From Desulfovibrionaceae bacterium (GTDB taxonomy: Bacteria; Desulfobacterota; Desulfovibrionia; Desulfovibrionales; Desulfovibrionaceae): 39,790 nt of DNA. This document shows positions 7,974 to 32,267 of this stretch, piece by piece. The notes under the pieces are model-generated. The model had not been told where the DNA came from and made no database searches. It was given only the letters and a program-made list of their open reading frames with translations. Each line of letters opens with the position of its first letter. The stretch's first letter is position 1. Position numbers and translations under genes: made by a program. The stretch spans positions 1 to 39,790 of the forward strand of contig JADFXV010000024.1 in NCBI GenBank assembly GCA_015233395.1. Direction: 5' to 3'.

Positions 7974-8003
7974 GGTTATCGCCCGCAAGGTGAAGTTACT
8001 GCT

Positions 8004-8036: not shown

Positions 8037-8037
8037 A

Positions 8038-12554: not shown

Positions 12555-12624
12555 CCGGCCCCGCCCGCCCCGCCGGCGGCTTCCCGCCCGCCCGGGCCGC
12601 GAGGCGGCCCCAAGGAGAATCCTC

Positions 12625-13428: not shown

Positions 13429-13480
13429 CCGCTTTGGCCGGGCCGGGGCGGACCTCGATGCGGCGCGCCCCGGAAATATA

Positions 13481-13604: not shown

Positions 13605-13756
13605 TCTTGTAATCCGCCACATTTCACCATTTCTTCACACGATCATCGCCTTTGCGTCACCAATCCGGCGCGCGCCCGGACTACACGTCTTCCAGCACCC
13701 AGGCCGCCAGGCCCAAACAGGAACCGCCGGTCAAACCGGCGCCCGCGGAGCCCGAC

Positions 13757-15583: not shown

Positions 15584-15656
15584 TCGATATTCACTCCGGT
15601 CCGGCCGAGCCGGGCCGCAACTCCGGGCCGGACAGCCGCCCCGGCGGGACGGGCGC

Positions 15657-15929
15657 ATGACGCGACTTTTTCAAGGCATCCTCGGGATATTTCTCACCCG
15701 GCCGGCCGCAAAGCCTACAAAGCCCTTGTCCCGGTTTTACGACCCGGGCGGGCTCCTGGCGGACCCGGTCTTTCACTCCCGGTACCGCGACCAGCTGGCC
15801 ATCTTCGAAAGCGCTCTGATCAACGCCGACCTGCCCGCGCTCGACGCCGCCGCCGCCAAGCTCACGCGCATGCAGGACGACTGCCTGGCTCCGGCCGGAC
15901 GCCTCCGGCCTTCCGGGGAGCCCTCGTGA
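15657..15929 (+). CDS. Small hypothetical protein (90 aa)
   Basis: 90 residues, starting at an ATG 74 bases after the acyltransferase stop. The N-terminus is weakly hydrophobic and basic (MTRLFQGILGIFLTRP), then a soluble segment (RFYDPGGLLADPVFHSRYRDQLAIFESAL, taken in parts) with helix-forming pattern. No family recognised. Codon use resembles the neighbours and it lies in line with the flanking plus-strand genes, supporting a real gene. No strong ribosome binding site, so translation may depend on the upstream gene. Confidence 0.5.
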   Translation: MTRLFQGILGIFLTRPAAKPTKPLSRFYDPGGLLADPVFHSRYRDQLAIFESALINADLPALDAAAAKLTRMQDDCLAPAGRLRPSGEPS

Positions 15930-15939
15930 GCGTTTTTTC

Positions 15940-16018
15940 CAAACGCTGCCCGAGGCCCCCCTCCCCCATCCCCAAAGTCCCCCCCCGCCGCCGCCCGCCT
16001 CCCCGGCCGGGCCGGTTT
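15940..16018 (+). promoter_or_regulatory. Long C-rich, G-poor tract upstream of the glycosyltransferase gene
   Basis: About 80 bases on the plus strand dominated by C (runs of 5 to 8 C) with few G until the end. It lies between the small protein and the PHP-glycosyltransferase gene. Unstructured C-rich RNA of this kind is what the Rho factor binds, so it could be a conditional termination site; equally it may be neutral composition. Confidence 0.3.
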
Positions 16019-16119
16019 CGCGCGTCAGGGCGCCCCGTCTTTTCGGGAGCTGGGGGAGCCGGGGGAGCCTGGACGCAAACAATTTCCCTCGCAACAAACG
16101 ACATGGAGGTGATGGCGTC

Positions 16120-18549
16120 ATGAAGATCGATTTACACGTCCACTCGGGACATTCCACCAGGCCCTCGCAATGGATCCTGCAAAAAATCGGCTGCCCCGAG
16201 AGCTTCACCAAGCCGCAATTCATTTACGACCGGGCCAGGGAACTCGGCATGGACCTGGTGACCATCACCGACCACAACACCATCGACGGCGCCCTGTCCA
16301 TCGCCCATCTGCCCGGGGCCTTCGTCAGCGTCGAGATCACCACCTATTTCCCCGAAGACGGCTGCAAGGCGCACGTCCTGGCCCTGAACATCGACGAAGA
16401 AACCTTCGCCGAGATCCAAAAGATCCGCGAGAACATCTACGACCTGGCCGCCTTCCTCAAGCGGGAAAAGGTCATCCACGTCAGCGCCCATCCGCTCTAT
16501 GGGGTCAACGGCAAACTCACTCCGGAACATGTCGGCAAGCTGCTTTTGCTGTTTAGCCATTTCGAGCTCAACGGCGCGCGCGAAGGCGCGGCCAACAGCG
16601 CGCTTGAGCGGATCACGGCCAATCTCACCCCGGAAATCATCGAGCGCCTGGCCAATCGCCACGGCATCGAACCGGCCGCGGGCGAACCCTGGAAAAAGCA
16701 CCTGACCGGCGGCAGCGACGATCACAGCGGCCTGCACATCGCCCGCCGCCACACCGAGGCCCCGTTCACCGCAAGTCTGCCCGAATTCCTCGAAGCCCTG
16801 GCGGCCGGACGCATCCTGCCCAGAGGCCGCGACGCCAAACCCGAAAACATGGCCCACACCCTGTACTCCATCGGCTACCAGTTCTACGACTCCAAGCTTT
16901 CGCTCGGGAAATACGCCGGGAAGGACGTGTGCATCAATTTTCTCGACAACGCGCTGCGCCCCGGACTTCCGCGCGAGCAGACCATGCTCGGCCGGGTGCA
17001 GACCTATTTCAGCGCCAAACGCTACGGACGGCGCTGCGACGCCGCCGACTCGGGCAAAAGCCGCGTCAACGAACCCAAAGAAATGATTTTCCGCGAAGCG
17101 GCCCGGATCATCCTCGGCGACCCCGATTTGCGCCGGGTGTCGCTTGGCGAGCGTTCCGCCAGCCAGGGCAGAAGCAAGGACTGGTTCCGTTTCGTGAGCC
17201 AGGCGACCAACAGGGTGCTCAGCGTCTTTGCCGGCCAGTTCTTCGACAACGTCTCGGGACTCAACGTCTTTGACATCTTCAAGACCATCGGTTCGGCCGG
17301 GGCGCTCTACACCGTGACCGCGCCCTTTTTCGCGGCTTACTCCATGTTCAACGAGGACCGCATCGCCGCCGTCGGCATCGAGAATTACATCCTCGGAGGC
17401 GCGGCCAAGCCCACCGGAAACATCGCGGTCGCCCACTTCACCGACACCCTCGGCGAGGTCAACGGCGTGGCCAGGACGTTGCGCAACAGCCAGGACACGG
17501 CCATGCGCCTGGGCAAGAAAATGTCGCTTCTGGCCTGCGACCCGGATCTGCCCGAGGGCGAGCCCGGCATCCGCAACTTCACGCCCATCGGCGTCTTCGA
17601 GCTGCCGGAATACCCGGAGCAGAAAATCTTCTACCCGCCGCTGCTCGACATCATCCGCCACGTTTTCGAGTGCAAATACACCCATATCCATTCCTCGACC
17701 CCCGGCCCCATGGGCCTGGCCGCGCTGCTCGCCTCCCGGATACTCAAGCTGCCCATCCACGGCACCTATCACACCCAAATACCCCAGTACGCCAAGCAGC
17801 TCACCGGCGACGACCAGATGGAGGAACTCGTCTGGAAATACACCATCTGGTATTACAACCAGATGGACACTGTCTTCGCGCCCTCGCAAGCCACGGCCGA
17901 CGAACTGGCCGCCAAGGGCGTGAGCAGGGACAAGATCACGGTCTACCCGCGCGGCGTGGACACCGCCCTGTACCACCCGTCCAAGAAGAACGGCTTCCTC
18001 AAGAGCCGGGGCGTCTTCGACGGAGTGAATCTGCTTTACGCAGGCCGGCTCTCCAAGGAAAAAAACCTGGACATGCTGGTGGACGCCTTCAAACTGCTTT
18101 CCCGCAAGGACGACCGCTTCAACCTGATCCTGGCCGGAGACGGCCCCATGGTCGGCGACCTCAAGAAGTCCCTGCACGGCGAACGGGCCGTGTTCACGGG
18201 GTTTCTTTCCTGCGATGAACTGGCCAATTGTTACTCCTCGTGCGACCTGTTCGTCTTTCCGAGCCTGACCGACACCTTCGGCAACGTGGTCATGGAGGCC
18301 CAGGCCTCGGGCCTGCCGGTGATCGTCGGCAACGCCGGGGGACCGCGCGAAAACGTGATCCACGGCGAAACCGGTCTGGTCCTGGACAGCGTCGATCCGC
18401 TCGTCTGGGCCAACACCATCGGCGACCTGCTCAGCGACGACGGACGCCTGAAAAACATGGGCCGGGCGGCCAGGGCCATGATGGAAAACCGCACCTTCGA
18501 GGACGCCTTCAAGAGGACCTGGGAGCTTTACGAGGCGGCCCGCCTGTGA
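16120..18549 (+). CDS. PHP phosphoesterase - GT4 glycosyltransferase fusion
   Basis: 809 residues, cytoplasmic. The N-terminal part is a PHP-type metal-dependent phosphoesterase: KIDLHVHSGHST (residues 2-13), ITDHNTIDG, VEITTYF, SAHPLYG and GGSDDHSG supply the usual His/Asp/Glu ligands. The middle (~270-430) is not recognised. The C-terminal ~370 residues are a GT4 (group 1) glycosyltransferase: HFTDTLGEVNGVARTL at its start, GTYHTQIPQYA, LLYAGRLSKEKNLDMLVDAF, LAGDGPMVG and the nucleotide-sugar end FPSLTDTFGNVVMEA with GLPVIVGNAGG. The combination suggests a glycosyltransferase acting on a lipid or nucleotide sugar coupled to a phosphatase. The start ATG has GGAGGTGA about 8 bases upstream. 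The stop overlaps the next gene's GTG (GTGA), so the radical SAM enzyme is translationally coupled. Confidence 0.9.
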   Translation: MKIDLHVHSGHSTRPSQWILQKIGCPESFTKPQFIYDRARELGMDLVTITDHNTIDGALSIAHLPGAFVSVEITTYFPEDGCKAHVLALNIDEETFAEIQKIRENIYDLAAFLKREKVIHVSAHPLYGVNGKLTPEHVGKLLLLFSHFELNGAREGAANSALERITANLTPEIIERLANRHGIEPAAGEPWKKHLTGGSDDHSGLHIARRHTEAPFTASLPEFLEALAAGRILPRGRDAKPENMAHTLYSIGYQFYDSKLSLGKYAGKDVCINFLDNALRPGLPREQTMLGRVQTYFSAKRYGRRCDAADSGKSRVNEPKEMIFREAARIILGDPDLRRVSLGERSASQGRSKDWFRFVSQATNRVLSVFAGQFFDNVSGLNVFDIFKTIGSAGALYTVTAPFFAAYSMFNEDRIAAVGIENYILGGAAKPTGNIAVAHFTDTLGEVNGVARTLRNSQDTAMRLGKKMSLLACDPDLPEGEPGIRNFTPIGVFELPEYPEQKIFYPPLLDIIRHVFECKYTHIHSSTPGPMGLAALLASRILKLPIHGTYHTQIPQYAKQLTGDDQMEELVWKYTIWYYNQMDTVFAPSQATADELAAKGVSRDKITVYPRGVDTALYHPSKKNGFLKSRGVFDGVNLLYAGRLSKEKNLDMLVDAFKLLSRKDDRFNLILAGDGPMVGDLKKSLHGERAVFTGFLSCDELANCYSSCDLFVFPSLTDTFGNVVMEAQASGLPVIVGNAGGPRENVIHGETGLVLDSVDPLVWANTIGDLLSDDGRLKNMGRAARAMMENRTFEDAFKRTWELYEAARL

Positions 18550-20605: not shown

Positions 20606-23410
20606 ATGACCGACCAGACACAGCTGCGGGAAGCGGAGCAGACCGCCCCTCAGCCCCAGGAACACCCCCTCGAAACCGGCTTGCCGGGACTGGCCCCGAG
20701 CGAGGAGTTCTCCCGCAGGCTTGAGCATTTCGCCCAGAAGGCCCACGTGCTCGCCGGCCTGACCAGCAGCGGCAAAGTTCGTCCCTTCGACGCCTTCTCC
20801 CATCTGCGCGCGATGTGGGAGCCGCTCGCCAGCGAGGGCGAGAAACTCATCGAGTCCCCGGCCGAGGAAAAACCGGCCATGGTGGGCCTGAGCGCGGCGG
20901 AGGCGGCCGAGCGATTGCGCCGGTACGGCCTCAACCAGGCCGTGGTCGAAAAAAGGATCGGTTTCGGCCTGCGGCTCTTTTTGGCCGTGAGAAATCCGCT
21001 CGTGCTGCTGCTTGTGGCGCTCGGCGCGATCTCGTATCTGACCGACGACGTCACTTCGGCCTTGATCATCGTCTCCATGGCGGTCCTGGCCGTGACCCTC
21101 AAGGTCGTCCAGGAAGCCAAGGCCGACAAGGCTGCGGCGCAGCTCAAGCGGATGGTCCACACCACGGCCACCGTGTTGCGCGACGGCGCCAAGCGCGAGA
21201 TTCCCCTGGCCGGACTGGTTCCGGGCGACGTCGTCCTGCTCGCGGCCGGCGACATGATCCCGGCCGACATCCAACTGCTCAAGTCCAAAGACCTCCATGT
21301 CAGCCAGGCCATGCTCACGGGCGAGGCCCTGCCGGTGGAAAAGCAGGCTCCCCACGAGGCGGCGGACTCCCCCCGGGCCAAGGCGCTCGACGATCCGGGC
21401 CTGTGCTTCATGGGCGCCAACGTGATCTCCGGCACGGCCTTGGCCCTGGTCGTGTCCACCGGAAGCGCGACCTATCTCGGCGGCATCTCCGCCAAATTGT
21501 CCGAAAAACGCCCGCCCAGCGACTTCGACAAGGGCCTGAAGAAGTTCACCGCGCTGATGCTGTATTTCATGATGTTCATGGTGCCCTTCGTCTTTTTCGC
21601 CAACGGCGCCTTCAAGGGGAGCTGGAGCGAGGCCTTCATGTTCGCCCTGGCCGTGGCCGTGGGCCTGACCCCGGAAATGCTGCCCATGGTGGTCACGGTC
21701 TGCCTGTCCAAGGGCGCCCTGGCCATGTCGCGCCGCAAGGTCATCGTCAAGCGTCTGGAAGCCATCCAGAATTTCGGGGCCATCGACATCTTGTGCACGG
21801 ACAAGACCGGCACCCTCACCCAGGACAAGATCATCCTGGAGAAATACCTCGACGTGTACGGCGCGCAGGACAATTCCGTCCTGGAATACGCGGGCGTCAA
21901 CAGCCTGTTCCAGACCGGCCTGAAAAGCGCCATCGACGTCGCGGTCATCGACTCCGCGACCAAGAACCGCGATCGCGTCGACACGTCGAAATACGGCAAG
22001 CTCGACGAAATTCCCTTCGATTTCATGCGCCGGCGCATGAGCGTCGTGGTCAAGGACAAAAGCTCGGACAAGAGCCTGCTCATCTGCAAAGGCGCGGCCG
22101 AAGAGGTCTTCAAATGCTGCACCCGCTGCATGCAAAAGGGCAACCTCGTCGCGCTCGGCCCGGAGCACCGCGAAACCATGGAGCGCGTAGTGCGCGATCT
22201 GAACGAGGACGGCTTCCGGGTGGTGGCCCTGGCATACAAGGAAGTGGACGGGAGCCGGACCGATTTCGCCGTGGCCGACGAAAGCGGCCTGATCCTGATG
22301 GGCTACCTGGCCTTTCTCGACCCGCCCAAGGAAAGCGCCGCCGAGGCGCTCAGAGCCATGATCGCCCACGGCATCACCCCAAAGATCCTGACCGGCGACA
22401 ACGCCGTGATCACCGCCAACATCTGCCGCCAGGTCGGGCTTAATCCCGCGGGCCCGATTGTCACCGGCGAGATGGTCGCCGCCATGGACGAGCACGAACT
22501 GGCCGCCATCGTCGAGGAGCGCCACGTTTTCGCCAAGCTCGACCCGATGCAGAAGAGCACGATCGTCGCCGCCCTGCGGCGCGGCGGACACGTGGTCGGC
22601 TTCATGGGCGACGGCATCAACGACGCCCCGGCGCTCAAGGCCGCCGACGTGGGCATCTCCGTGGACAGCGCCGTGGACGTGGCCAAGGAATCGGCGGACA
22701 TCATCCTGCTGGAAAAAAGCCTGGCCGTCCTGGAAAGCGGCGTCATGGAAGGGCGCAAGGTCTTCTCCAACATCACCAAGTACATCCGCATGGGGGCCAG
22801 TTCCAATTTCGGCAACATGTTCAGCGTGCTCGGCGCCAGCATCTTTTTGCCCTTCTTGCCCATGCTGCCGATCCAGATCCTGGTCAACAACCTGCTCTAC
22901 GACTTCTCCCAGGCGGCCATTCCCACCGACAACGTGGACGAGGAGTTCCTCGCCCGCCCCAGGCGCTGGCGCATCGACGACATCAAGCGCTACATCCTGT
23001 ATCTCGGCCCGGTGAGTTCGCTCTTCGACTACGCCACCTTTTTCGTCATGCTTTCGCTGTTTCACGCCTGGAACAATCCAACCTTGTTCCAGACCGGCTG
23101 GTTCGTCGAGTCCCTGCTCTCGCAGACGCTGATCGTGCATGTCATCCGTACGGACAAGATCCCTTTCCTGCAAAGCCGCGCCAGCCTGCTTTTGACCCTG
23201 ACCACGTTTTCGATCTGCGCTTTCGGGTTGTGGCTGCCCTATTCGCCCCTTGCCGGGTTCCTCGGCCTGGTCGCCCTGCCGGGCGACTATTTCTGGCTTT
23301 TGGCGCTGATCCTGTTCGTCTACATGTGCCTGACCCAGGTGGTGAAATCCTGGCTCGCCAGGCGCTTAAACCAGCCGGCCCCCGGCCTGCCCGGCCCGGC
23401 CGCCGCATGA
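20606..23410 (+). CDS. mgtA: Magnesium-translocating P-type ATPase
   Basis: 934 residues, inner membrane. Features of P-type ATPases in order: TGEALPVEK (dephosphorylation loop), LTPEMLPMVVTVCLSKGA in a membrane helix, phosphorylation motif DKTGTLTQD (D399), KGAAEEVF (nucleotide binding), ILTGDNAVI, and GDGINDAPALKAADVGIS. The PEMLPM helix and SRRKVIVKRLEAIQNFGA are typical of the P3B MgtA/MgtB group, which import Mg2+ down its gradient. The N-terminal ~100 residues are hydrophilic and slightly longer than usual. ATG with GGAG 8 bases upstream. The stop overlaps the start of an exported NTF2-like protein (ATGA), so the two are coupled. Ca2+ transport cannot be excluded from sequence, but the membrane motifs favour Mg2+. 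Confidence 0.92.
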   Translation: MTDQTQLREAEQTAPQPQEHPLETGLPGLAPSEEFSRRLEHFAQKAHVLAGLTSSGKVRPFDAFSHLRAMWEPLASEGEKLIESPAEEKPAMVGLSAAEAAERLRRYGLNQAVVEKRIGFGLRLFLAVRNPLVLLLVALGAISYLTDDVTSALIIVSMAVLAVTLKVVQEAKADKAAAQLKRMVHTTATVLRDGAKREIPLAGLVPGDVVLLAAGDMIPADIQLLKSKDLHVSQAMLTGEALPVEKQAPHEAADSPRAKALDDPGLCFMGANVISGTALALVVSTGSATYLGGISAKLSEKRPPSDFDKGLKKFTALMLYFMMFMVPFVFFANGAFKGSWSEAFMFALAVAVGLTPEMLPMVVTVCLSKGALAMSRRKVIVKRLEAIQNFGAIDILCTDKTGTLTQDKIILEKYLDVYGAQDNSVLEYAGVNSLFQTGLKSAIDVAVIDSATKNRDRVDTSKYGKLDEIPFDFMRRRMSVVVKDKSSDKSLLICKGAAEEVFKCCTRCMQKGNLVALGPEHRETMERVVRDLNEDGFRVVALAYKEVDGSRTDFAVADESGLILMGYLAFLDPPKESAAEALRAMIAHGITPKILTGDNAVITANICRQVGLNPAGPIVTGEMVAAMDEHELAAIVEERHVFAKLDPMQKSTIVAALRRGGHVVGFMGDGINDAPALKAADVGISVDSAVDVAKESADIILLEKSLAVLESGVMEGRKVFSNITKYIRMGASSNFGNMFSVLGASIFLPFLPMLPIQILVNNLLYDFSQAAIPTDNVDEEFLARPRRWRIDDIKRYILYLGPVSSLFDYATFFVMLSLFHAWNNPTLFQTGWFVESLLSQTLIVHVIRTDKIPFLQSRASLLLTLTTFSICAFGLWLPYSPLAGFLGLVALPGDYFWLLALILFVYMCLTQVVKSWLARRLNQPAPGLPGPAAA

Positions 23411-24010: not shown

Positions 24011-24109
24011 TCACGAGACCGCGATCAGGACCAGGTAGATGACCGCCTGGACCGCCGTGGCCGCCATGACGATGGTGAAATCCGACAGCAAAAATACGCT
24101 CGTTTTCAT
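24011..24109 (-). CDS. 32-residue membrane microprotein
   Basis: Very short open frame with an ideal ribosome site (GGGGAGG, 7 bases before ATG) and a clean hydrophobic product: MKTSVFLLSDF, then TIVMAATAVQAVIYLVLIAVS, a single helix long enough to span the membrane, then stop. No Cys, one Lys and one Asp near the N-terminus. Small proteins of this kind often bind and adjust a transporter or sensor kinase. It is the last minus-strand gene of the GAK side and converges on the Mg2+ transporter/NTF2 pair. Similarity to MgtS or KdpF-type peptides is only in size and hydrophobicity. Confidence 0.6.
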   Translation of the reverse strand: MKTSVFLLSDFTIVMAATAVQAVIYLVLIAVS

Positions 24110-24264
24110 GACCCGCCTCCCCGTGGTGTAGGCCGGGAGTCTGAGCCGCCCGGGTGGCGGCAACGGGTCGGGCGAATGAAATTTTCACGACGTTCGGGCG
24201 TGGGACCGGCAGAGTTTTCGAGCTCACGCCCTGTCTGGTCCCCGGACCCCGGCCAGGCGGCGCG

Positions 24265-24771
24265 TCAGATGATCCGCAGCTTCTTGAGCAGATGATGGGT
24301 CTTGGTGGAGATCACGTAGCCTTCGTTCTTCTTGCCGCCCGGCGACCTGGTCTTGACCTTGTAGACATAGCCGTTATTGAGCAGATCCTCCAGGTCGGAG
24401 GCTTCGTACTGCCGGGCTTTTTTCTCCGGCATCAGGCCGCGATAGCGGCCGATGCGGGAAAAATGGTGGATGTCTTCCATGATCTCCACAAGCTCGACGG
24501 GGATGTCCTGATTGCCGTCCCTGATGACCGGCGCCTCTTCCTCGTTGATCAGCTTTGCGCCGGCGCGGCCCAGGCGCAGCCCGGGGTAGTCGGTGTTGCT
24601 CGGGGTGGATAAAACGACCCGCTCCAGGTAGTCAGCGGCGATCAGCCGGCCAAGGTCGTCGTTTTCGTACAACAGCAGATATTTGGCCGGCATCATGCCG
24701 CCGTAGCGATGCATTCTGCTGAAAAACCGGACATTTTTGAGAATCTGCCTCTCGCGCTCAGACAAGCTCAT
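24265..24771 (-). CDS. Small protein with internal duplication, end of GAK locus
   Basis: 168 residues, soluble. It contains two copies of one module: residues ~14-55 (RFFSRMHRYGGMMPAKYLLLYE, taken in parts, then DLGRLIAADYLERV) and ~105-150 (HHFSRIGRYRGLMPEKKARQYE, in parts, then DLEDLLNNGYVYKV). The shared pattern is FSR-x-x-RY-x-G-x-MP-x-K, YE, DL, LL, Y-x-x-x-V, which looks like a winged-helix or similar small fold. Each copy is followed by a strand-like segment with Gly/Lys. I do not recognise a family. ATG 24771 has GGAGG 5 bases upstream; a GTG further up would overlap that site. It lies downstream of the CofD-like gene on the same strand, separated by a hairpin repeat. Confidence 0.75.
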   Translation of the reverse strand: MSLSERERQILKNVRFFSRMHRYGGMMPAKYLLLYENDDLGRLIAADYLERVVLSTPSNTDYPGLRLGRAGAKLINEEEAPVIRDGNQDIPVELVEIMEDIHHFSRIGRYRGLMPEKKARQYEASDLEDLLNNGYVYKVKTRSPGGKKNEGYVISTKTHHLLKKLRII

Positions 24772-24881
24772 GATCGCCTCCGCCACGGCCGCCAGGCCGC
24801 CGTCCCGCCGGACGCTTTCGCCGGCGCCGCCTGGGCCGTGCGCCCCGGCCCGTCCGGCTCGTTGTTCATGTCCCTGTGTCG

Positions 24882-24918
24882 CCGGGAGCGCGAAAATGAA
24901 GACATCTTCCGCTCCCGG
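24882..24918 (-). repeat. Hairpin A of the composite repeat, single module
   Basis: CCGGGAGCG / CGCTCCCGG arms and an inner GAAAATG / CATCTTC stem; loop TCTT when read on the minus strand. It lies 5 bases beyond the stop codon of the minus-strand CofD-like gene, in the same orientation. It could act as a transcript-end or processing hairpin before the downstream small gene. Confidence 0.75.
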
Positions 24919-24923
24919 TGGCG

Positions 24924-26111
24924 TCAGGTCAGCGAGGCCAGCGCCTGGGCCAAAAGCCCGGGGTCCAGAAGCGGGGCGCTTTGCTTGGTGACCAGCGGAC
25001 AGTCGATGACCGCGACCCCGAGTTTGCGCAGCGCCAAGGCCTCAAGGCCGCCCGGATAGACGCCGTTTTTGGCGTCCACCAGGACAAACCCCAGAACCCG
25101 GCCCGGCTCGATCCGGTCGTGGTCGGCGTTGAGATACCCCATCAAGACCCGCACCTGGTCCGTGAGCGAAAGTCCGACCAGTTCCGGATCGCTCCCGGTG
25201 TTGGGGACGTAGACTTTGGGGCAGGGGTTGGCGGCCACGGCCCGGCCCACGCCCGAAGGAAGCAGGTTGGCGACCAGGCTGGAATAGAAGCTGCCGATCG
25301 GGTAGCAGATCAGATCGGCCTCCGCGATGCGCTGCGCGATCTTGGGGCGCACCGTCGCCGTGACCGGCTCGGGATCGCTGAGATCGCGAGTCAGCCAGAG
25401 CTTTTCGATGCGCTGCGTCAGGACGGGAGCTTCCTTGCCGGTCAGGAGGTGCTGGCCGATGACGACCTCGCCGCCGGCAAGCCGCGCGGCCAGGTGCAGG
25501 TTCTTGTTGACCACCGGGCGCACCACGCCCTGCGCCCCGACCAGCTTGGAGAACAGATAGATCACCGTGTCGAATTGGCGGCGGCTGTCCAGATATCCGG
25601 CCGTGAGCACCAGGTTGCCGACGCTCGCCCCCCGCAGGTTGAAACCGGCCGGCATCAGGCCCATGAACGCGCGGCAATGGTTGCGTAAAATCTTGCGCAT
25701 GGGGTCGGGCACGCGCCGGATCAGGTGGTGGCGCCCCAGGGCCAGGCTTTTAAGCTCCAGGTCCAGTTCGCCGGCGCTGGCTTTTTTGTCCAGGCGATGG
25801 GCGAACAGGTCGTAGATTTCGGGGTTGCCCGTGAGCGACTGGTCGGCCAGGGCCATGAGCCGGTTGCGGAAGTCGCCCACGGCGGGCATGGCGAAGGCCT
25901 GGCGCAGGATGGCCGAACTGCCGCCGGAATCGAACGGGGTGATGATGTGGATGGAATTGTGGCTGAAGGCCACCAGTTCCCGGCAGGCGTCTTTCAGGGC
26001 GCTGCCGCCGCTGAAGAACAGGATCTTCGGCCCGAACTCCGGCGCGCGGCGCAGGCGTTCGAGCTTGACCGGATCGGGGATCGCGACTTCGCGAGTGATG
26101 GACAGGCGCAT
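24924..26111 (-). CDS. GAK-system CofD/YvcK-like protein
   Basis: 395 residues. The N-terminal third carries CofD/YvcK signatures: ILFFSGGSALKDA (nucleotide-type loop), then IITPFDSGGSSAILRQAF and GDFRNRLMALAD, which match the YvcK pattern DDGGSS-x-x-LR and GD-x-RN. CofD transfers a phospholactyl unit in F420 synthesis; YvcK binds UDP-sugars and affects gluconeogenesis and cell shape. Named GAK-system members of this family have no known reaction. No F420 genes are in the window. Start at ATG 26111, 7 bases after the HprK-like stop, with only a weak ribosome site (GGATGATC), so translation is probably coupled. A hairpin follows its stop codon. Confidence 0.88.
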   Translation of the reverse strand: MRLSITREVAIPDPVKLERLRRAPEFGPKILFFSGGSALKDACRELVAFSHNSIHIITPFDSGGSSAILRQAFAMPAVGDFRNRLMALADQSLTGNPEIYDLFAHRLDKKASAGELDLELKSLALGRHHLIRRVPDPMRKILRNHCRAFMGLMPAGFNLRGASVGNLVLTAGYLDSRRQFDTVIYLFSKLVGAQGVVRPVVNKNLHLAARLAGGEVVIGQHLLTGKEAPVLTQRIEKLWLTRDLSDPEPVTATVRPKIAQRIAEADLICYPIGSFYSSLVANLLPSGVGRAVAANPCPKVYVPNTGSDPELVGLSLTDQVRVLMGYLNADHDRIEPGRVLGFVLVDAKNGVYPGGLEALALRKLGVAVIDCPLVTKQSAPLLDPGLLAQALASLT

Positions 26112-26118
26112 ACCGGGA

Positions 26119-27228
26119 TCATCCGCCGGCGCTTATGCGTCCGGTTTCGAGATAGTCCCTGCACACGGCCGCGGCGCGGTCGAAATCCACGCCCCCGGCG
26201 ATTTCGATCACGTCCGCGGCGCTCAAGAGTGCTGCGTAGGCCGCAGGCGAGCGGTCAAAGCCCACCCCCGGGCCCTCGGCGCGGTAGAACAGGCCGGTGC
26301 TTTTCATGAAGGCGGCCAAAAGCTCGGGGCGTTCGCTCAAGGACACCGCGCGGACCAGGACCGGACCGCCGTCGCGGCGCCAATTGAGAATGACCAGGCC
26401 GTTCATGCGCGCCGTAAGGACGAATTTTCCCGGGCCGAAGCTGTCCACGATCAGGGCGTCGTATTTTTGCTCCAGCCGCCACAGGGAATCGGCCGGCAGA
26501 GCCAAAAGCTCCCGGCGCTTTTCCGGGTCGATGATCCAGGCCAGGTCTTCGTTGTTGAGCAGGGTTCCGGGGTTGACCCGAGGCTGCTTGGGCACCCCGC
26601 GCATGCAGACGCCGCCCGCGCCCCGCGAAGCGAGGATCCGGTCGTTGCTCACGAAGTCCGCGCCCAGGCTCATCAGGCGCATGGCCAGGGTGGACTTGCC
26701 CATGCCGGAAAAACCGGCCAGCGCCAGCCCGCGCCCGCAAAGCCGCACTCCGGCGGCGTGGCCGAGCTGGCAGCCCTGGTTGAGCATGCGTTCGATGAAG
26801 CGATTGTTGACGAAATTGACGACCTGGTTGGCGTTCTCCCGGCACGGACCAAGCACCAGGTTGTCCCCGCCGCCGAAAATAAACACCATCCCGGTGAGCC
26901 GCTTGCGCACCACCCGGCCGTCGGCGAGTTCGCAAAATTCCTCTTTGATCTTGGTCTTGCCCGGGTCCGGCGCCTTGGCCGCATAGGGCAGGTCAAGCGT
27001 CACGGGCGCCGATTCCAGGGCGGTGATGACGATCTCGCTTTCGCCCCCGGGGCTCAAGAATTCCTGGAAATAATGCGTGAGCTCCTTGGCCAGGGCGTCG
27101 TCGCCGGTGCGCACCGCGATGACGCAGCCGCCCAGGTCGACGCGGACTTCCAGGGGGGTTTTCGCTGCGTTAAGAAACGGGGCCGTAAGTTCGCGCCTGC
27201 TTGGCAGGCCGGGCGAGACGGCGCTCAC
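26119..27228 (-). CDS. HprK-related kinase (GAK system, type B)
   Basis: 369 residues. A P-loop GFSGMGKSTLAMRLMSLGADF lies at about residue 175 (quoted here in part: GFSGMGKST), followed by SNDRIL, as in the C-terminal domain of HPr kinase/phosphorylase. The N-terminal ~160 residues (VRVDLGGCVIAVRT, GGGDNLVLGP) are specific to the HprK-like proteins of GAK loci. No HPr gene is in the window, so the substrate is unknown; another locus protein or a small molecule is possible. The GTG start at 27228 overlaps the ATP-grasp stop (GTGA). The frame continues upstream antisense-like over the ATP-grasp gene, but that part is not protein-like and is rejected. Confidence 0.88.
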   Translation of the reverse strand: MSAVSPGLPSRRELTAPFLNAAKTPLEVRVDLGGCVIAVRTGDDALAKELTHYFQEFLSPGGESEIVITALESAPVTLDLPYAAKAPDPGKTKIKEEFCELADGRVVRKRLTGMVFIFGGGDNLVLGPCRENANQVVNFVNNRFIERMLNQGCQLGHAAGVRLCGRGLALAGFSGMGKSTLAMRLMSLGADFVSNDRILASRGAGGVCMRGVPKQPRVNPGTLLNNEDLAWIIDPEKRRELLALPADSLWRLEQKYDALIVDSFGPGKFVLTARMNGLVILNWRRDGGPVLVRAVSLSERPELLAAFMKSTGLFYRAEGPGVGFDRSPAAYAALLSAADVIEIAGGVDFDRAAAVCRDYLETGRISAGG

Positions 27229-28097
27229 CGGCCCACCTTGTCCAGGACGTAATCGGCGACCAGCGCGGCGGCGTCGATGCCGCGCGCCTGGAACAGCCCC
27301 CTGAAGCCGCCGAAGGCCGAAACCTCGAAGACGTACGGGCCGTCCTTGGTCAGGGCCACGTCCACGGTGGTGAAATCGAGCCCGAACAGGCCGGCGGCTT
27401 TGCGCGCCAATTCGACGATCTCCGCCGGCGGATCGGCGGGCTTGTACTTGCCGCCGGAGGCCGTGGTCGTGTTCCAGGCCTCGTTGGTTTTGCAGCGGGC
27501 GTAGGTGGTCAGGTACTCGCCGCCGAGGAAGGCCAGCCCCAGGTCGGAGTCGCCGAGCTCGATGGCCTTTTGGATGTACATGACCCGGTTTTCCGCGTGG
27601 TAGGCGGCGATGACTTCCGCCGCGCCGGGTTCGTCGCTGATCAGCGTCATGCCCCGGGCCTTGGAGGTGTACAGCGGCTTGAACACGGCCAGGCCGTATT
27701 CGCGGACCGTTTCCAGGGCGAGCGCCGGGTCCTCGGTGACGGTGGTCGGCGGCATGGGGATGCCGCCCAGGCGCAGGGTCACGGTGCAGGCCAGCCGGTT
27801 GAGCACGCGCAGGATGGCCAGGGGGGAACTGAAAATCCTCACCCCGCGCTCGGCCACGAAGCGCAGCGATTCCAAGCGGTCGAGCATGTCCGGCGAATAG
27901 CTGGTTCCGATCTTCTTGATCATGAGGGCGTCCAGTTCGCACAGGTCGCAGCCCTCGAACATGGCCCGGCCGGTCTGAAGATCGAACTTGACCGCCTTGA
28001 TGTCGATGAGCAGACGAACCCCGGTCCTGACCGCGACCGCGTCGGCCAGGCTTTCCGAGGACCAGCCCCCCGGAATTCCGATGACGCCAATCTTCAT
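27225..28097 (-). CDS. GAK-system ATP-grasp enzyme
   Basis: 290 residues, RimK-like ATP-grasp fold. An N-terminal Rossmann-like part (MKIGVIGIPGGWSSESL), then the ATP-grasp lid and base: GLAVFKPLYTSKARGM (ATP-binding Lys and loop), VMYIQKAIELGDSDLGLAF (partly quoted), and metal-binding acid residues near YVFEVSAFGGFRGL. RimK-like enzymes form amide or related bonds using an acyl phosphate. In this family the acceptor is unknown; a locus protein with a C-terminal tail (such as the XXXCH protein) is a reasonable candidate, by analogy with RimK, which tails a ribosomal protein. ATG after AAGGGG; 12 bases follow the upstream stop. Its own stop overlaps the HprK-like gene. Confidence 0.9.
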   Translation of the reverse strand: MKIGVIGIPGGWSSESLADAVAVRTGVRLLIDIKAVKFDLQTGRAMFEGCDLCELDALMIKKIGTSYSPDMLDRLESLRFVAERGVRIFSSPLAILRVLNRLACTVTLRLGGIPMPPTTVTEDPALALETVREYGLAVFKPLYTSKARGMTLISDEPGAAEVIAAYHAENRVMYIQKAIELGDSDLGLAFLGGEYLTTYARCKTNEAWNTTTASGGKYKPADPPAEIVELARKAAGLFGLDFTTVDVALTKDGPYVFEVSAFGGFRGLFQARGIDAAALVADYVLDKVGR

Positions 28098-28109
28098 GAG
28101 GCAAACCCC

Positions 28110-29762
28110 TTATAAATACAGGATGTCTTTGGGCAAAACGAACGCTTCCCAGTTCCCGCCTCCGTGGGCCGCGATCGTCTCCAACAGATACATCGAGCGG
28201 TGGTACATTTCCCTGGCGAATTTGTAGTGCAGTTCGAAGCGGGTGGAAGTGTAAAAGGAGCGGGCAAGCGCGAAGGCCAGCCTGGCCTCGAAGGTGGCGT
28301 CCCCGTGCTCGGCGGCGAAGGTTGCGGCAAAAAGGTAAAACTGGCCGATGACCTTGTCGATCCGTTCGCGCACGCCGTCGAAGACCGGGGTGCGGAAATT
28401 CGAGACCAGAAAGGTCGAGACGTCCTGCAGATAATCGTAATCGCGGGACCGGTAGAGATCGATGTAGTGGACCTGCTGGGTCTCGTGGTTGTAGACGATA
28501 TTGTTGATGTTGAAGTCGCCGTGGGTGAAAACCGAAAACGGCGCCGGAAGCGTCGTTTCAAGCGCCTGGCACTGGGTCAGCAGTTGCTCCGAAGACCGCG
28601 CTGCGGCGCTTCCGAGCGTCAGGCCGGGACGCCAGAATTGGGGATGCACCTGGCGCACGGATTCGCTGCGCGAGCGCAGCTGGCCGATGTAGTCGGTCTT
28701 GACCGGCGCTGCAACCATGGTGGAACCCCAGGTGTGCCGGACGGTCTGTTCCAGGACGAACAGGGCGTTGCCGAGGACGTCCTCGGCCGCCGACAAAACC
28801 ACCTCGTCGAGGGTGCAGCCGGACAGGAACTCGACCAGAATCGAGCCCTTGCCCTCGGCCTCGTCCTCGTTGTAGCCGAAGATTTCGGAGACCAGGCCGG
28901 GAAAAAGCGACTGCCAGCGGGCGATGTTTTCGCGCTCCTTGACGATTTTCTCCAGGGCGCCTTCCTTGTAGATGCTGCTCTGCCGGTCCTTGGCCGCGCT
29001 CTTGGGCAGATGCCGCTCCACCTTGCCGATGCGGCAGCCGCTTCTCGTCCCCCAGATCCCCTTGAAATCGATCCCGGCCAGCGAGTCCCCGAAGCCGGAC
29101 ATCATCAGCGTGCGCTTGAGCGCGTCGAATTGTTCGATTTTGATGCGCTCGCCGATGATCGAAAAAATGATCGCCTCGCCGACGTTGAGCAGGGAATCGC
29201 CGATACGCTCGAAATAGCGGAATATGAACAGGACCGTGACCAGGTTCTGCGCCTGCCGGCCGGTGGAAAGCTCCTTCATGATGGCGTCGAAGGCCTCTTT
29301 GTAGAGCCGGTCGATGTCGTATTCGGACTTGCAGATGGACAGGGCCTTGGCCATGTCGCCGCGCTCGATGGCGGGCAGGATCTGGGCCAGGCACTGCTCG
29401 ATGATGTCGAAGGTCACCTGCCAGTCGAACTTATGGATGAAGGCCTGGTCTTCGAGGAAGCCCATCTGGCGCACGACGTTGACCAGAAAGTCGGCGATGC
29501 GCTCCAGGTTGACGGTGATGATCTGGACCGCCCGGATCTTGTTGAGCTGATCCTGGTCGAGCGTCTTGTCGGAATTGATCGTGGTGAAGCATTTGTTTTC
29601 GATGATGGTCTTGAGGTTGTCGATGTAGTCGTCCCGGGAGACGATTTTCTCGTACAGCGACCTTTCCGGCTCCATGAGGAACTGGCGGGTCGTGCTGGCC
29701 TGGGCCTCGACGTCCAGAACGATGAACTTGAAATTTTCTTCCAGTCCTTCGAAGGTGATCAT
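28110..29762 (-). CDS. PhoU domain - aminoglycoside phosphotransferase-like kinase fusion
   Basis: 550 residues. The N-terminal ~225 form a PhoU-type helical bundle, two copies of a three-helix unit (for example NLERIADFLVNVVRQMGF and FRYFERIGDSLLNVGEAI), the E/D-x-x-x-D pattern of PhoU metal sites. The C-terminal ~300 are an APH/choline-kinase fold: catalytic loop THGDFNINNIVY (HGD-x-x-x-x-N) and the metal-binding IDLYRSRDYDYLQDVS. A fusion of a phosphate-signalling regulator to a small-molecule kinase is unusual; it suggests that phosphate state controls phosphorylation of a small metabolite. Starts 1 base after the amphi-Trp stop (TGATATG), so coupled. ATG context otherwise has no good ribosome site. 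Substrate unknown. Confidence 0.88.
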   Translation of the reverse strand: MITFEGLEENFKFIVLDVEAQASTTRQFLMEPERSLYEKIVSRDDYIDNLKTIIENKCFTTINSDKTLDQDQLNKIRAVQIITVNLERIADFLVNVVRQMGFLEDQAFIHKFDWQVTFDIIEQCLAQILPAIERGDMAKALSICKSEYDIDRLYKEAFDAIMKELSTGRQAQNLVTVLFIFRYFERIGDSLLNVGEAIIFSIIGERIKIEQFDALKRTLMMSGFGDSLAGIDFKGIWGTRSGCRIGKVERHLPKSAAKDRQSSIYKEGALEKIVKERENIARWQSLFPGLVSEIFGYNEDEAEGKGSILVEFLSGCTLDEVVLSAAEDVLGNALFVLEQTVRHTWGSTMVAAPVKTDYIGQLRSRSESVRQVHPQFWRPGLTLGSAAARSSEQLLTQCQALETTLPAPFSVFTHGDFNINNIVYNHETQQVHYIDLYRSRDYDYLQDVSTFLVSNFRTPVFDGVRERIDKVIGQFYLFAATFAAEHGDATFEARLAFALARSFYTSTRFELHYKFAREMYHRSMYLLETIAAHGGGNWEAFVLPKDILYL

Positions 29763-29763
29763 A

Positions 29764-30036
29764 TCAGTTTTCGATCCTGATCGGCGTGCCGGGCGCGCAG
29801 GAGATACCGTCCCCGCGATCCTTCCAGGCGATCCTGAGGGTTATTTTGCTCTCGTCGTTCTTTTTCTTGGCCTTGACCGAAAAGTTGAGCAGGCCCTTGG
29901 GGGTGAGCAGGATCTCTTCCTCGCCCGAGGAAAGCGCGATCCGGCCGTTTTCAAAACCGAGTTTCAGGGCTTCGATGAATTCGCCGATGGTCTTTGCGTC
30001 CTGCAGCGAATCGAAGACGAATTTTTCTTCAGGCAT
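29764..30036 (-). CDS. amphi-Trp domain protein
   Basis: 90 residues. Small beta-rich protein of the amphi-Trp type, seen in GAK loci: SLQDAKTIGEFIEALKLGF, EEILLTPKGLLNFSVKAKKK, ITLRIAWKD with the conserved Trp near the end. The function of the domain is unknown. Start placed at the second of two in-frame ATGs because GGAG lies 9 bases before it; the first ATG (30051) would have a ribosome site touching the start. It lies between the PHP-like and PhoU-kinase genes and ends 1 base before the latter's start. Confidence 0.82.
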   Translation of the reverse strand: MPEEKFVFDSLQDAKTIGEFIEALKLGFENGRIALSSGEEEILLTPKGLLNFSVKAKKKNDESKITLRIAWKDRGDGISCAPGTPIRIEN

Positions 30037-30061
30037 GCTCTTTTTCTCCATCCCTCGCCCG

Positions 30062-31258
30062 CTATCCCGCGAGCCGTTCCTTGTATTGCGCGATGATCGT
30101 TCGGCGGCTTACGTTTTGCATGATGAGTTTCTTTTGCAGATCCAGATCGTCCCAGGCCGGCTGCAAGCCGATCTCGCGGCCGGATTTTTCCGGATCCTGC
30201 GCGGCCCTGGGTTTGGTCTTCTCACCCATGTGGCAGTCGTCGCCCATGAAGATGAGCATGGCGCGCTCGCCCGTGCGCCGCTGGCGGTTCTTGCGGCCCA
30301 CCACCGAGATGAGAAACTCCGTGTATTCGCGCGATTGCGGATTCCAGACCTCGATGCCGTCCACGTCGTAGTCGGCCAGCAGAATCGGCCAGAATTGCTC
30401 GGGATGGGGGATGACCACCCCGCCTCCGAGGCCGCGGGTCTCCTCGATCACTTCGCTGGCGCGGTAGAAGTATTTCAGAGAAAACCGCGCCTTGACCCGT
30501 TTCTTGACCGCGTTGAGGTAGAACTGAATGCGCCCGGCCATGGCGTCCCCGATCTCGGGACGCAGGGCGTCGAACCAGTCGCGCAGGAGCTTGTTCTTGA
30601 GCGGGCGTTGCGAAAACGAGGACCAGCCCGCGTCGATGAGCCGCTCGATCTTCAGGACGTTGACCCGGGTGAACTCGATCAGGTCTTCGGCGGCCCCGGT
30701 TTCCCGGGCGGCGGCGTCGACGATGTCCAGGGCCGGCCGGGTGACGGCGTGCATGAATTCGAAGAGTTGGGAAGACCGGTATTTGAAGGTGTGGTGCAGG
30801 ATCGACTTGAGCGTGGCCGCGCCGGTGACTTTCGCTGCGGGAAAATGCAGGAGCAGTTGCACCTTGCGGTTGAATCCCTTGGAGTAGCAATCGATCTCCG
30901 CCCCGGTAAATCCCCGGTAGGACACGAACTCGTTGTGCTGCGTGGGGATGACCAGTTCTTCGCCGCTGCCGGGGAACATGGCCTTGAGCCGCTTTTCGAT
31001 CAGCGCAAGCGGCACGAATTCCGGATGCCAATGCACGGCCAGCACGGCCTCCTGGCGGGGAAAGACGCTTACCGGCTCCAGGATCTGCCGCTGCTGCCAA
31101 TCGGCGAGCTTTTCGGACACGATGCCCTCGAAGCGTTCCTGGTCGGCGGCCGTGATCTCCTCACCGAGCTCTCCCAGGGCCTTTTCCCAGAGTTCCTGCT
31201 GGCCCGCGGGACGTTTGATGATCTGCACCGGCGCCCCGGTTCGCGGCAGGTTAGTCAT
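30062..31258 (-). CDS. PHP-like protein of the GAK locus
   Basis: 398 residues, soluble. Three patches fit a PHP-type metal site: AVHWHPEFVPLA (~75), VVIPHPEQFWPIL then YDVDGIEVWNP (~285-305), and FMGDDCHMGEKT (~340). Between them is a helical region unique to this family. It is shorter and less canonical than the PHP domain of the glycosyltransferase fusion upstream in the window, so I call it PHP-like and not a proven phosphoesterase. The ATG at 31258 overlaps the XXXCH stop (ATGACTAA); an ATG three codons upstream (31267) is possible. Placement among GAK genes suggests it hydrolyses the phosphate that one of the kinases adds, which is an inference. Confidence 0.78.
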   Translation of the reverse strand: MTNLPRTGAPVQIIKRPAGQQELWEKALGELGEEITAADQERFEGIVSEKLADWQQRQILEPVSVFPRQEAVLAVHWHPEFVPLALIEKRLKAMFPGSGEELVIPTQHNEFVSYRGFTGAEIDCYSKGFNRKVQLLLHFPAAKVTGAATLKSILHHTFKYRSSQLFEFMHAVTRPALDIVDAAARETGAAEDLIEFTRVNVLKIERLIDAGWSSFSQRPLKNKLLRDWFDALRPEIGDAMAGRIQFYLNAVKKRVKARFSLKYFYRASEVIEETRGLGGGVVIPHPEQFWPILLADYDVDGIEVWNPQSREYTEFLISVVGRKNRQRRTGERAMLIFMGDDCHMGEKTKPRAAQDPEKSGREIGLQPAWDDLDLQKKLIMQNVSRRTIIAQYKERLAG

Positions 31259-31790
31259 AGATGGCATGGCAACGGGCTTTCTGGTGGGCCAGGGCTTCGG
31301 CCATGGCGCCCATGGCCAGCCGGTCCCCGGCGGCGAAGGCGGCGGCGAATTCCTCGACGGCGTGGCTGAAATCGTCGTAAAATTCCTCGCCCTTGCCGGG
31401 AAAGGTGACCATGAGCCTGGCGTCGGCCACGAAGCGTTCCACGACCTCCCCGGGGGGCAGTCCGCCCTCGTGCAGGGACTTGACGATGAGCCTGAAGTCG
31501 CCCTTCATCCGCTTTTTCATGTCCTTGTAGCGCGGCTTGGCAAAGGGCTTCTCCCCCTCGGCGGCCGGCGTTTCGTCCTCGCCCAGGGCCTCGCCCCACT
31601 GGGACTTGATCTTGATCTTGACGCTCAGATGTCCGAATTCGTCCTTGGCGCTGATCTTGAACTTGCTTGAGCGCGAAAGCCCGGACAAGGGGCTTTCGCC
31701 GCCTTGTTCCAAGGCGTCGGCGAGTTCCCGGAAAAACGCCGGCAACTCGCTTCGCTGCATCGTCCGTTCGATTTTACGTTCTTCTTCCAT
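31251..31790 (-). CDS. GAK-system XXXCH protein
   Basis: 179 residues. The N-terminal part resembles an amphi-Trp module (LPAFFRELADALEQGG, then KFKISAKDEFGHLSVKIKIK ending SQW). The C-terminal half is helical with the GAK-linked tail MAEALAHQKARCHAIYD, carrying the adjacent Cys-His that gives the XXXCH family its name. The function of the Cys-His tail is unknown; it might be a modification site for the ATP-grasp or kinase partners. ATG at 31790 has AGGGGG 6 bases upstream; longer frames upstream are rejected for lack of a site. The stop overlaps the PHP-like start. It is the first gene after a candidate promoter at 31898. Confidence 0.85.
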   Translation of the reverse strand: MEEERKIERTMQRSELPAFFRELADALEQGGESPLSGLSRSSKFKISAKDEFGHLSVKIKIKSQWGEALGEDETPAAEGEKPFAKPRYKDMKKRMKGDFRLIVKSLHEGGLPPGEVVERFVADARLMVTFPGKGEEFYDDFSHAVEEFAAAFAAGDRLAMGAMAEALAHQKARCHAIYD

Positions 31791-31897
31791 GACGGCCCCC
31801 TGTTTTCCCGATTCCTGGTTCGCGGCCCCGGCTCTCGTCGCCGGCGCCTGGCGAACGCGGCGATTTTTTCGCGGCGGCGCTTGCTTCACGCCAAGCG

Positions 31898-31926
31898 AAG
31901 GTATTCCCGGGCCGCCCTCCGGTCAA
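31898..31926 (-). promoter_or_regulatory. Candidate promoter for the XXXCH-to-CofD genes
   Basis: Read on the minus strand: TTGACC (31921-31926), a 17-base spacer and TACCTT (31898-31903). The -35 box has 5 of 6 matches but the -10 box only 3, so support is modest. It would give a leader of about 100 bases before the XXXCH start at 31790. Confidence 0.3.
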
Positions 31927-31995
31927 TAATCTTAGAGCAGAGAAGCCGCGATTTGTCGAGACCTTGCGCGCAATTCGTTCCCCGCCGCCTCGGCC

Positions 31996-32030
31996 CCCCC
32001 GCGCGCGCGGGGGCAATCGGAGGGGATTGC
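31996..32030 (-). terminator. GC-rich hairpins after the first amphi-Trp gene
   Basis: On the minus strand, GGCAATC / GATTGCC (32011-32030) is followed by CCCCCGCG / CGCGGGGG (31996-32012). Both lie within 50 bases of the amphi-Trp stop. There is no T-run, so they would be weak intrinsic terminators or transcript-stabilising hairpins. Confidence 0.35.
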
Positions 32031-32042
32031 CGGCAAGGATTT

Positions 32043-32267
32043 TCAGGGGACTATTTTCCAGGAAATTTCCAGGCTGATTTTTTCCTTGTCCTTTTTCTGT
32101 CCGGCCTTGAATTCCACTGCCACCACCCGCGCGGGGTGCAAAACAAGGGTTTCCTTGTCGTCGGCAAGTTTCACTTCCCCGGCCTTCATGCCCTCGCTCA
32201 TGGCCTCGATGCGCGCGATCGCCTCGCGCAGCTCCATGACCCCTTCCAGCTTGACCTTGCTTCCCAT
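32043..32267 (-). CDS. amphi-Trp domain protein (first GAK gene)
   Basis: 74 residues, the minimal form of the amphi-Trp module: MGSKVKLEGVMELREAIARI, VVAVEFKAGQKKDKE and the closing ISLEISWKIVP. It is similar to the amphi-Trp protein at 29764 and to the N-terminal part of the XXXCH protein, so the locus has three related modules. ATG with AAGGAG 6 bases upstream is a strong start. It is separated from the XXXCH gene by ~250 bases that contain GC-rich hairpins (31996-32030) and a possible promoter, so the two may be transcribed separately. Confidence 0.82.
   Translation of the reverse strand: MGSKVKLEGVMELREAIARIEAMSEGMKAGEVKLADDKETLVLHPARVVAVEFKAGQKKDKEKISLEISWKIVP

Follow-up and report, generated by a model that had tools for sequence, protein, structure and literature searches.

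What does a set of genes do that is widespread and highly conserved, and yet was named without a function? The question is raised by the GAK system, for which the names of the NCBIfam models give none, and of which a locus is present in a 39,790-nucleotide stretch of DNA from a Desulfovibrionaceae bacterium (contig JADFXV010000024.1 of assembly GCA_015233395.1; the whole stretch is referred to as the window). In the open-access papers searched the terms 'GAK system', 'HprK-related kinase' and 'amphi-Trp' occur in no paper, and 'XXXCH domain' occurs in one phage paper only, as the table label of a tail-fibre gene. We propose that GAK is a phosphate-status module, which would match the phosphate store of the cell to the phosphate supply. 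The full scheme, as worded in the last section, is given a probability of about 0.5; a link of GAK to phosphate homeostasis, which is the looser claim, is very probable.

The GAK locus of the window

The complete locus is located on the minus strand (24924–32267) and consists of eight genes. Read from 32267 to 24924, these encode amphi-Trp protein 2 (74 aa, 32043–32267; 63 bits to TIGR04354, cut-off 31), the XXXCH protein (179 aa from the ATG at 31790, 31251–31790; 98 bits to TIGR04358, cut-off 40), a PHP-superfamily phosphoesterase (401 aa, 30062–31267; assigned from its predicted structure and invariant candidate metal ligands), amphi-Trp protein 1 (95 aa, 29764–30051; 64 bits to TIGR04354, cut-off 31), a PhoU domain fused to an APH-type kinase (550 aa, 28110–29762; PF01895 and PF01636), the GAK ATP-grasp enzyme (290 aa, 27225–28097; 446 bits to TIGR04356, cut-off 300), HprK-related kinase B (369 aa, 26119–27228; 495 bits to TIGR04355, cut-off 200) and the GAK CofD/YvcK-like protein (395 aa, 24924–26111; 529 bits to TIGR04357, cut-off 340). 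All five NCBIfam GAK-associated models (TIGR04354–TIGR04358) score above their curated cut-offs within this one locus in a profile search, including the four families by which membership of the system was judged (ATP-grasp, HprK-related kinase B, CofD-like and XXXCH); none of them matches the PhoU-APH kinase or the PHP hydrolase. The initial annotation, made from the sequence alone, had described a full GAK locus with these gene identities, and the profile search and, for the PHP-like protein, the predicted structure bear this out.

From XXXCH to CofD the seven genes follow closely on one another, the successive junctions being an overlap of 17 bases, gaps of 10, 1 and 12 bases, an overlap of 4 bases and a gap of 7 bases. 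The 4-base overlap (GTGA) joins the ATP-grasp gene to the GTG start of the HprK gene at 27228, as read from the sequence. Coupling of most genes by overlaps or 1-base gaps, as first described, holds for three of these six junctions and not for the other three, which are 7–12 bases wide. Both amphi-Trp and XXXCH proteins are present, as had been read, but the second amphi-Trp gene stands 252 bases upstream of XXXCH, and the XXXCH protein itself has an N-terminal half that is amphi-Trp-like (a weak match of 22.5 bits). On its other side, the amphi-Trp 2 gene is separated from the upstream chemoreceptor gene by a hairpin-rich gap of 198 bases. The extension of the locus to 24011 does not hold: the last open reading frame (ORF; 173 aa, 24265–24786, minus strand) ends at 24265, starts 137 bases beyond CofD and is a doubtful member. 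It belongs to no family above cut-off and has no relatives in the other 105 stretches searched, and it is therefore not counted. ORFs were called mechanically, and many of the contigs compared are short. An anti-phage defence system was considered and rejected, as the nine proteins scanned gave no PADLOC match at E 0.01.

Recurrence of the gene set

A bacterial and archaeal species collection was scanned with an ATP-grasp profile, which gave 499 stretches with a relative; the best 80 were read, and gene families were assigned by profiles derived from the proteins encoded in the window and from clusters of genes in these loci. Rows L190 and L101 (copies of L129 and L037) and L033–L035 (non-GAK) were dropped; the trees were also made without L114 (broken frame), and the PhoU-kinase tree and the neighbour counts also without L042. 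In L042 the CofD, PhoU-kinase and PHP frames are each in pieces, through sequencing errors or decay. The ATP-grasp tree holds 77 loci and the PhoU-kinase tree 100. For the counts of gene presence, 72 loci were used in which ATP-grasp is flanked by more than 5.5 kb on either side, short-flank loci being left out of the 77- and 72-locus sets. Some genomes give two loci; at least the pairs window/L036, L052/L053, L077/L132, L088/L135 and L089/L093 lie within the 72.

The PhoU-kinase and HprK genes are each present in 68 of the 72 loci, amphi-Trp in 67, CofD and PHP each in 55 and XXXCH in 42. Where both partners are present, they are mostly direct neighbours: PhoU-kinase and ATP-grasp in 95 of 99 loci, ATP-grasp and HprK in 97 of 99, HprK and CofD in 58 of 73, PHP and amphi-Trp in 65 of 70, and amphi-Trp and PhoU-kinase in 71 of 92. 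A near-identical order recurs, far beyond chance, in loci that belong by their record titles to several phyla, and this comparison supports the earlier view in so far as the genes occur as a set. In the phylum sample, 20 of 296 genomes have an ATP-grasp above cut-off. In the class of the gammaproteobacterium G306 (L129), 6 of 229 genomes match the HprK model, and in that of Tritonibacter G302 (L118) 2 of 289 have GAK genes; positives number 2 of 140 in the phylum of the deltaproteobacterium G304 (L124) and 5 of 246 in that of G307 (L130, Phycisphaerae), the named genome being included each time. The PHP gene tracks the GAK system: it occurs in 9 of 28 whole genomes, all nine of which are GAK genomes, and a whole-genome search found it in none of the 8 GAK-less genomes of the window's family and in none of 11 genomes with the second type of locus (see below).

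Partial sets also occur. L036, the second locus of the window's genome, has ATP-grasp and HprK (7053–9028) in a stretch without PhoU-kinase, PHP or CofD. It forms a separate branch of the ATP-grasp tree together with L049 and L050, which come from two related genomes and hold a split set (~9300–16860), ATP-grasp and HprK being followed later by CofD. PhoU-kinase is missing from all three loci; the L049 and L050 genomes carry it elsewhere, in L150 and L153, together with XXXCH, PHP, amphi-Trp and a second HprK. Between HprK and CofD of L049 lie peroxiredoxin-, pta- and ackA-like genes, named from their sequence.

Two types of locus and their hydrolases

We distinguish two types of GAK locus, a division that is new here: one carries PHP, and the other a metallophosphoesterase, a histidine phosphatase and often a Nudix protein resembling diphosphoinositol polyphosphate phosphohydrolases (DIPP). 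The second type accounts for 12 of the 72 loci (ten that are alpha- or gammaproteobacterial by title or class, L124 and L188), all without PHP and XXXCH; among these, the metallophosphoesterase, the histidine phosphatase and a small Nudix gene are each present in 10 and a SixA-Nudix fusion in 8. L184, L185, L187 and L193, from further genomes, are also of this type, and since L185 holds the same parts in a different order, the parts probably belong together. The phylum of G307 adds three loci with a metallophosphoesterase, L203, L205 and L202, the last of which also has a histidine phosphatase; L189 has neither PHP nor any hydrolase of the second type. PHP and the other hydrolases tend to exclude each other over the 72 loci (Fisher P 5e-9), but the two kinds are separated by a single change on the trees (two-state labels for 71 of 77 ATP-grasp and 90 of 100 PhoU-kinase loci), so that this counts as one event plus the case of L110. 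This locus is of the PHP type and has acquired, independently, a SixA-Nudix gene that lies between PhoU-kinase and ATP-grasp. A phosphohydrolase gene of some kind (PHP, metallophosphoesterase, histidine phosphatase or Nudix) is found in 67 of the 72 loci, which fits a product that is made by the kinases and removed by the hydrolase.

The nearest solved relatives of the Nudix half of the SixA-Nudix protein are DIPP enzymes (PDB profile, E 9e-14). For yeast DDP1, a member of this class, diphosphoinositides, dinucleotides and polyphosphates are described as substrates (PMC8064635). The metallophosphoesterase profile gives a weak match to ApaH only (E 0.0045).

No Pfam or NCBIfam model matched the PHP protein at E 0.1. 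Its predicted structure (pLDDT 90) matches metal-dependent phosphoesterases at Z 14.8–16.4, with 16.4 for 3o0f and 15.4 for RNase AM (9etk). The top ten entries (Z 9.0–16.4; the eleventh drops to 4.9) are metal-dependent phosphoesterases, RNase AM, an amidohydrolase with AMP and phosphate, polymerase III alpha and EndoQ, some of which we take to be members of the PHP superfamily. In 52 sequences H75, H77, E79, H107, H137, H284, D340 and H342 (numbering of the 397-aa form) are invariant and form the pattern HxH, H, H, HPE, DxH; these residues are presumably metal ligands. On the modelled fold and the conserved His and Asp residues, the 'PHP-like' protein is a PHP phosphoesterase.

Phosphate-uptake and polyphosphate genes near GAK

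A link to phosphate, proposed at the outset from the PhoU domain, gains substance from the neighbouring genes. Of the 77 tree loci, 10 have pst genes at a distance of up to ~10 kb, with 8 changes on the tree, and pst genes are also found near L109, outside this set. PstB/PhoU are found near 5 of the 77 (5 changes), where ~0.35 are expected (P 3e-5) if the 29 above-cut-off PstB of 32 GAK genomes of 4 Mb each are placed at random, with 20 kb per locus; L051 was counted here through a PstB cut by the stretch end and a PhoU. The GAK genes follow on without interruption from pstSCAB-phoU in L075 and from pstB-phoU in L092. PhoH-like genes, named from sequence, are near 8 loci.

In the Pseudomonadota the neighbours include genes of polyphosphate metabolism. 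CHAD is encoded no more than 10 kb from GAK in L103, L129 and L193, as is CYTH in L193, and CHAD also adjoins a lone HprK in L186. Polyphosphate kinase 1 (PPK1) is found in the same range in L129 and, truncated by the end of the stretch, in L103, as is PPK2 in L189 and, elsewhere, in L089. The recurrent pst-phoU neighbours, and the CHAD, CYTH and PPK neighbours in Pseudomonadota, are new here. The lone gene in L186 encodes an HprK-related kinase B next to CNNM-type, CHAD and ParA genes (1721–6534), the main GAK genes of this genome being on another contig (L187).

CHAD proteins are described as polyphosphate-binding modules (PMC6537752). In Streptomyces, ppk is reported to share an operon under phosphate control with a CHAD and a Nudix gene; in other organisms, Nudix and histidine phosphatase genes are said to follow ppk commonly (PMC8003754). 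This operon, whose clustered genes respond to phosphate, resembles the surroundings of some second-type GAK loci; it differs in that the part of that report available mentions no ATP-grasp, HprK-like, CofD-like or amphi-Trp gene (PMC8003754).

Polyphosphate kinase in GAK genomes

Among 38 GAK genomes PPK1 is present in 8 and PPK2 in 10, with one or the other in 10; G299 (Desulfogranum japonicum, L110) has both. The window's genome has no PPK1 and no PPK2, and thus no PPK-based polyphosphate system, and in the phylum sample both enzymes are absent from all 20 GAK genomes. Presence of PPK in the genome goes together with a Nudix gene in the locus (8 of 8 with Nudix versus 2 of 30 without, P 9e-7), seven of these eight genomes being Pseudomonadota; L089, outside the 38, has PPK2 and no Nudix gene in its stretch. 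GAK and GAK-less genomes were compared for PPK1 only, PPK2 having been searched in GAK genomes alone. In the window's family PPK1 occurs in none of 5 GAK genomes versus 6 of 8 GAK-less ones, all of one genus (P 0.02, from few genera), and in the phylum sample in none of 20 versus 33 of 276, which is not significant (P 0.14).

The kinases, the ligase and the CofD-like protein

The consensus of the PhoU-kinase has an ERI.D core in both PhoU repeats, with the conserved motif ERIGD..N..E, and HGDFNxNN with a following Asp (HGDFNxNN...D) in the kinase half; its solved relatives are PhoU and, weakly, aminoglycoside kinase. The GAK HprK keeps the P-loop GxxGxGKS and the preceding His of HPr kinase/phosphorylase in the alignment, but scores 27 bits where that family requires 240, and the DDR stretch of HPr kinase is replaced by NDR in all 27 aligned sequences. 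The ATP-grasp enzyme is similar to RimK, MptN and LysX over most of its length and passes the Pfam RimK domain (40.7 versus 21). Among solved chains, alpha-L-glutamate ligases and LysX types of lysine biosynthesis come closest to it, yet it falls below every equivalog cut-off (MptN, 135 versus 350 bits; S6 ligase RimK, 47 versus 331), and the EVN of the nearest solved ligase is EVS in all aligned GAK proteins (15 in one alignment, 101 in another). The CofD-like protein passes the superfamily model Pfam CofD (124 versus 30) and has UPF0052 (YvcK) types as nearest solved structures (E 8e-36), but is below the cut-off of the YvcK model (108 versus 196 bits).

The XXXCH and amphi-Trp proteins

The C-terminal domain of the XXXCH protein is a predicted four-helix bundle, which in the window ends in CHAIYD. 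The CH motif is present in 35 of 35 XXXCH proteins, always four residues before the C-terminal end; C174, H175, K92 and M127 are conserved in all 35 aligned sequences and M95 in 32. Weak Pfam matches link 14 of the 35 to cytochrome c' (best E 0.003) and 9 to cytochrome b562 (best E 5e-5), and the window's own protein matches neither of these two models. Profile matches in the PDB are mostly cytochrome c' (E ~1e-3), the top match being a designed bundle, and the fold search gave, at Z 11–12, cytochrome c', cytochrome b562 and designed bundles, scores that ordinary helical bundles can attain as well. The resemblance to such cytochromes is a new observation. Like the class II cytochromes c and b562, the domain is modelled as a four-helix bundle with a C-terminal CHxxYK, in which the CH motif takes the position of the haem ligand and the His would be axial. 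The attachment motif CXXCH of the class II cytochromes c is not present, as the first Cys is absent from the window's protein, and the XXXCH proteins have no strongly hydrophobic start. From alignments and models, the Cys-His pair is probably a haem-type site, working or relic, rather than a tagged tail. Stand-alone XXXCH proteins of ~100 aa without the amphi-Trp half follow an epimerase-like gene in L152 (7266–7556) and L151 (6813–7157); in L152 the next gene is ParA-like.

Amphi-Trp is a candidate partner of the enzymes, and a better one than XXXCH. Tails of at least 30 residues occur in 48 of 155 amphi-Trp ORFs; some of these tails abound in Lys, Ala and Pro, while others are acidic. A gene of a ParA-type ATPase family adjoins amphi-Trp in L059, L063 and L096, and CHAD in L103, L129, L186 and L193. 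AlgP is described as a polyphosphate-granule protein with an H1-like tail (PMC9239181); of the amphi-Trp tails, only the Lys/Ala/Pro-rich ones resemble it.

Other genes of the window

A PTP-like inositol phosphatase with phytase fold (PF14566; 35027–35836, minus strand) lies ~3 kb from the GAK locus. On the plus strand, the window encodes an acyltransferase-GNAT protein (13652–15583) and a glycosyltransferase with a long N-terminal part (16120–18549), whose clusters span 9 and 13 of the compared stretches, respectively. The window's genome has two paralogous magnesium P-type ATPases, one in the window (20606–23410, plus strand) and one in L036 (9181–11976, minus strand); the latter immediately precedes ATP-grasp and HprK and shares their strand.

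Alternative explanations

The initial annotation had a phosphorylated or nucleotide-linked tag placed on the Cys-His tail protein and removed by the PHP-like protein. The hydrolase genes agree with placement and removal, but the tail is not supported as the site: XXXCH is missing from 30 of the 72 loci, including all 12 of the second type, and from the whole genomes of 11 second-type strains tested, and hence it cannot be an obligatory substrate. In a broader form of protein tagging, the kinases and the ATP-grasp enzyme would put a phosphorylated or amino-acid tag on both amphi-Trp and XXXCH, to be taken off by the hydrolase. Proteins are the substrates of HprK homologues, RimK and LysX, to which the GAK ATP-grasp is closely related, ligate amino acids to proteins, and the amphi-Trp gene is nearly always there to supply a target; against this, XXXCH has the limited distribution and the haem-type look noted above, and MptN, which acts on a small molecule, outscores RimK almost threefold. 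We regard tagging as unlikely. The same MptN-like ligase, together with a member of the CofD superfamily, would suit the synthesis of a coenzyme tail of phosphoester and amino acids as in F420 or methanopterin, the phosphate neighbours then reflecting its cost or regulation. The nearest non-GAK ATP-grasps (L033 and L034, 153 and 144 bits) do lie in a cluster that reads, from its sequence, like methanopterin-type C1 metabolism. Yet the CofD-like protein is closest to YvcK types among solved structures, and to our knowledge a PhoU-sensor kinase and hydrolases are foreign to the coenzyme routes, which makes this explanation improbable.

Two further proposals keep the phosphate connection and change its object. 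GAK might make, or control the making of, a phosphate polymer without a polyphosphate kinase, with amphi-Trp proteins organizing the granules. Polyphosphate granules are reported for D. gigas (PMC5134017, citing older work) and D. alaskensis G20 (PMC5193443), yet PPK1 and PPK2 are both missing from the five GAK genomes sampled in the family, and this is what suggests the idea; the granule role would follow from the AlgP-like tails of some amphi-Trp proteins and the adjacent ParA ATPase. We hold it to be quite improbable. In the available part of the work on D. alaskensis G20 under phosphate limitation no gene is named as GAK (PMC5193443), and the same is true of the accessible portions of the D. 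vulgaris PhoB targets (PMC3333781) and interaction network (PMC3125180). A Desulfovibrio nitrate-resistance cluster for which an ATP-grasp fold is mentioned is not GAK, the genes listed in the part consulted being TauE-, PtxB- and PEP-synthase-like (PMC4001038). Alternatively, GAK would regulate Mg2+ transport, as part of a magnesium–phosphate balance, and not a phosphate store. A P-type ATPase gene (TIGR01524, 1068–1112 bits) is near both ATP-grasp/HprK loci of the window's genome, a magnesium P-type ATPase follows CofD in L070, and CNNM/CorC-type genes are near L103, L129 and L186. A full-length magnesium ATPase is nevertheless found at three of the searched stretches only, from two genomes, two of them being the paralogous copies, and magnesium regulation is very unlikely.

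Proposed function of GAK

The reading of GAK as a phosphate-status module is supported by the adjacency of PhoU-kinase, ATP-grasp and HprK, the pst and CHAD/PPK neighbours, the hydrolases, the ParA genes and the link between Nudix and PPK. Gene set, folds, conserved active-site residues, the two hydrolase types and the neighbourhoods are observed, and around them we infer reactions, their order, substrates and a role for amphi-Trp. The PhoU-type sensor, which is fused to a kinase, would read phosphate. The ATP-grasp, HprK-like and CofD/YvcK-like proteins would build a phosphorylated, probably amide-linked compound, which may be a small molecule such as a signal, a modification carried by the amphi-Trp protein, or part of a phosphate store, and a dedicated phosphohydrolase (PHP, or the hydrolases of the second type) would take it apart. 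The purpose would be to match the phosphate store of the cell to the phosphate supply, the store being polyphosphate where a polyphosphate kinase exists, and the amphi-Trp proteins may act as effectors bound to the store or the nucleoid.

Several observations weigh against this scheme. The 80 loci named here were selected for their likeness to a single ATP-grasp profile, and the sampling leans to query-like sequences. L201 has an above-cut-off ATP-grasp and no other GAK gene in its 13.8-kb stretch, and 5 of the 72 loci have none of the hydrolases. The exchange of PHP for metallophosphoesterase is one event on the trees, so that the Fisher values overstate it, and the CHAD and PPK neighbours come from few lineages. 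The best match to a Pho box (CTGTCAT-N4-CTGTCAT) reaches 11 of 14 positions upstream of 8 of 91 operons (8.8%) and in 2.7% of random stretches, a control that is unmatched for intergenic composition. Finally, and this is a new observation, 28 of the 38 GAK genomes, among them the window's, lack PPK1 as well as PPK2; GAK therefore cannot simply serve, and does not depend on, polyphosphate made by PPK.

If it is true that GAK governs a phosphate polymer made without polyphosphate kinase, this would bear on how sulphate reducers that lack the enzyme form polyphosphate granules. Tying GAK to phosphate status narrows the function of this widespread gene set to a short list of experiments.

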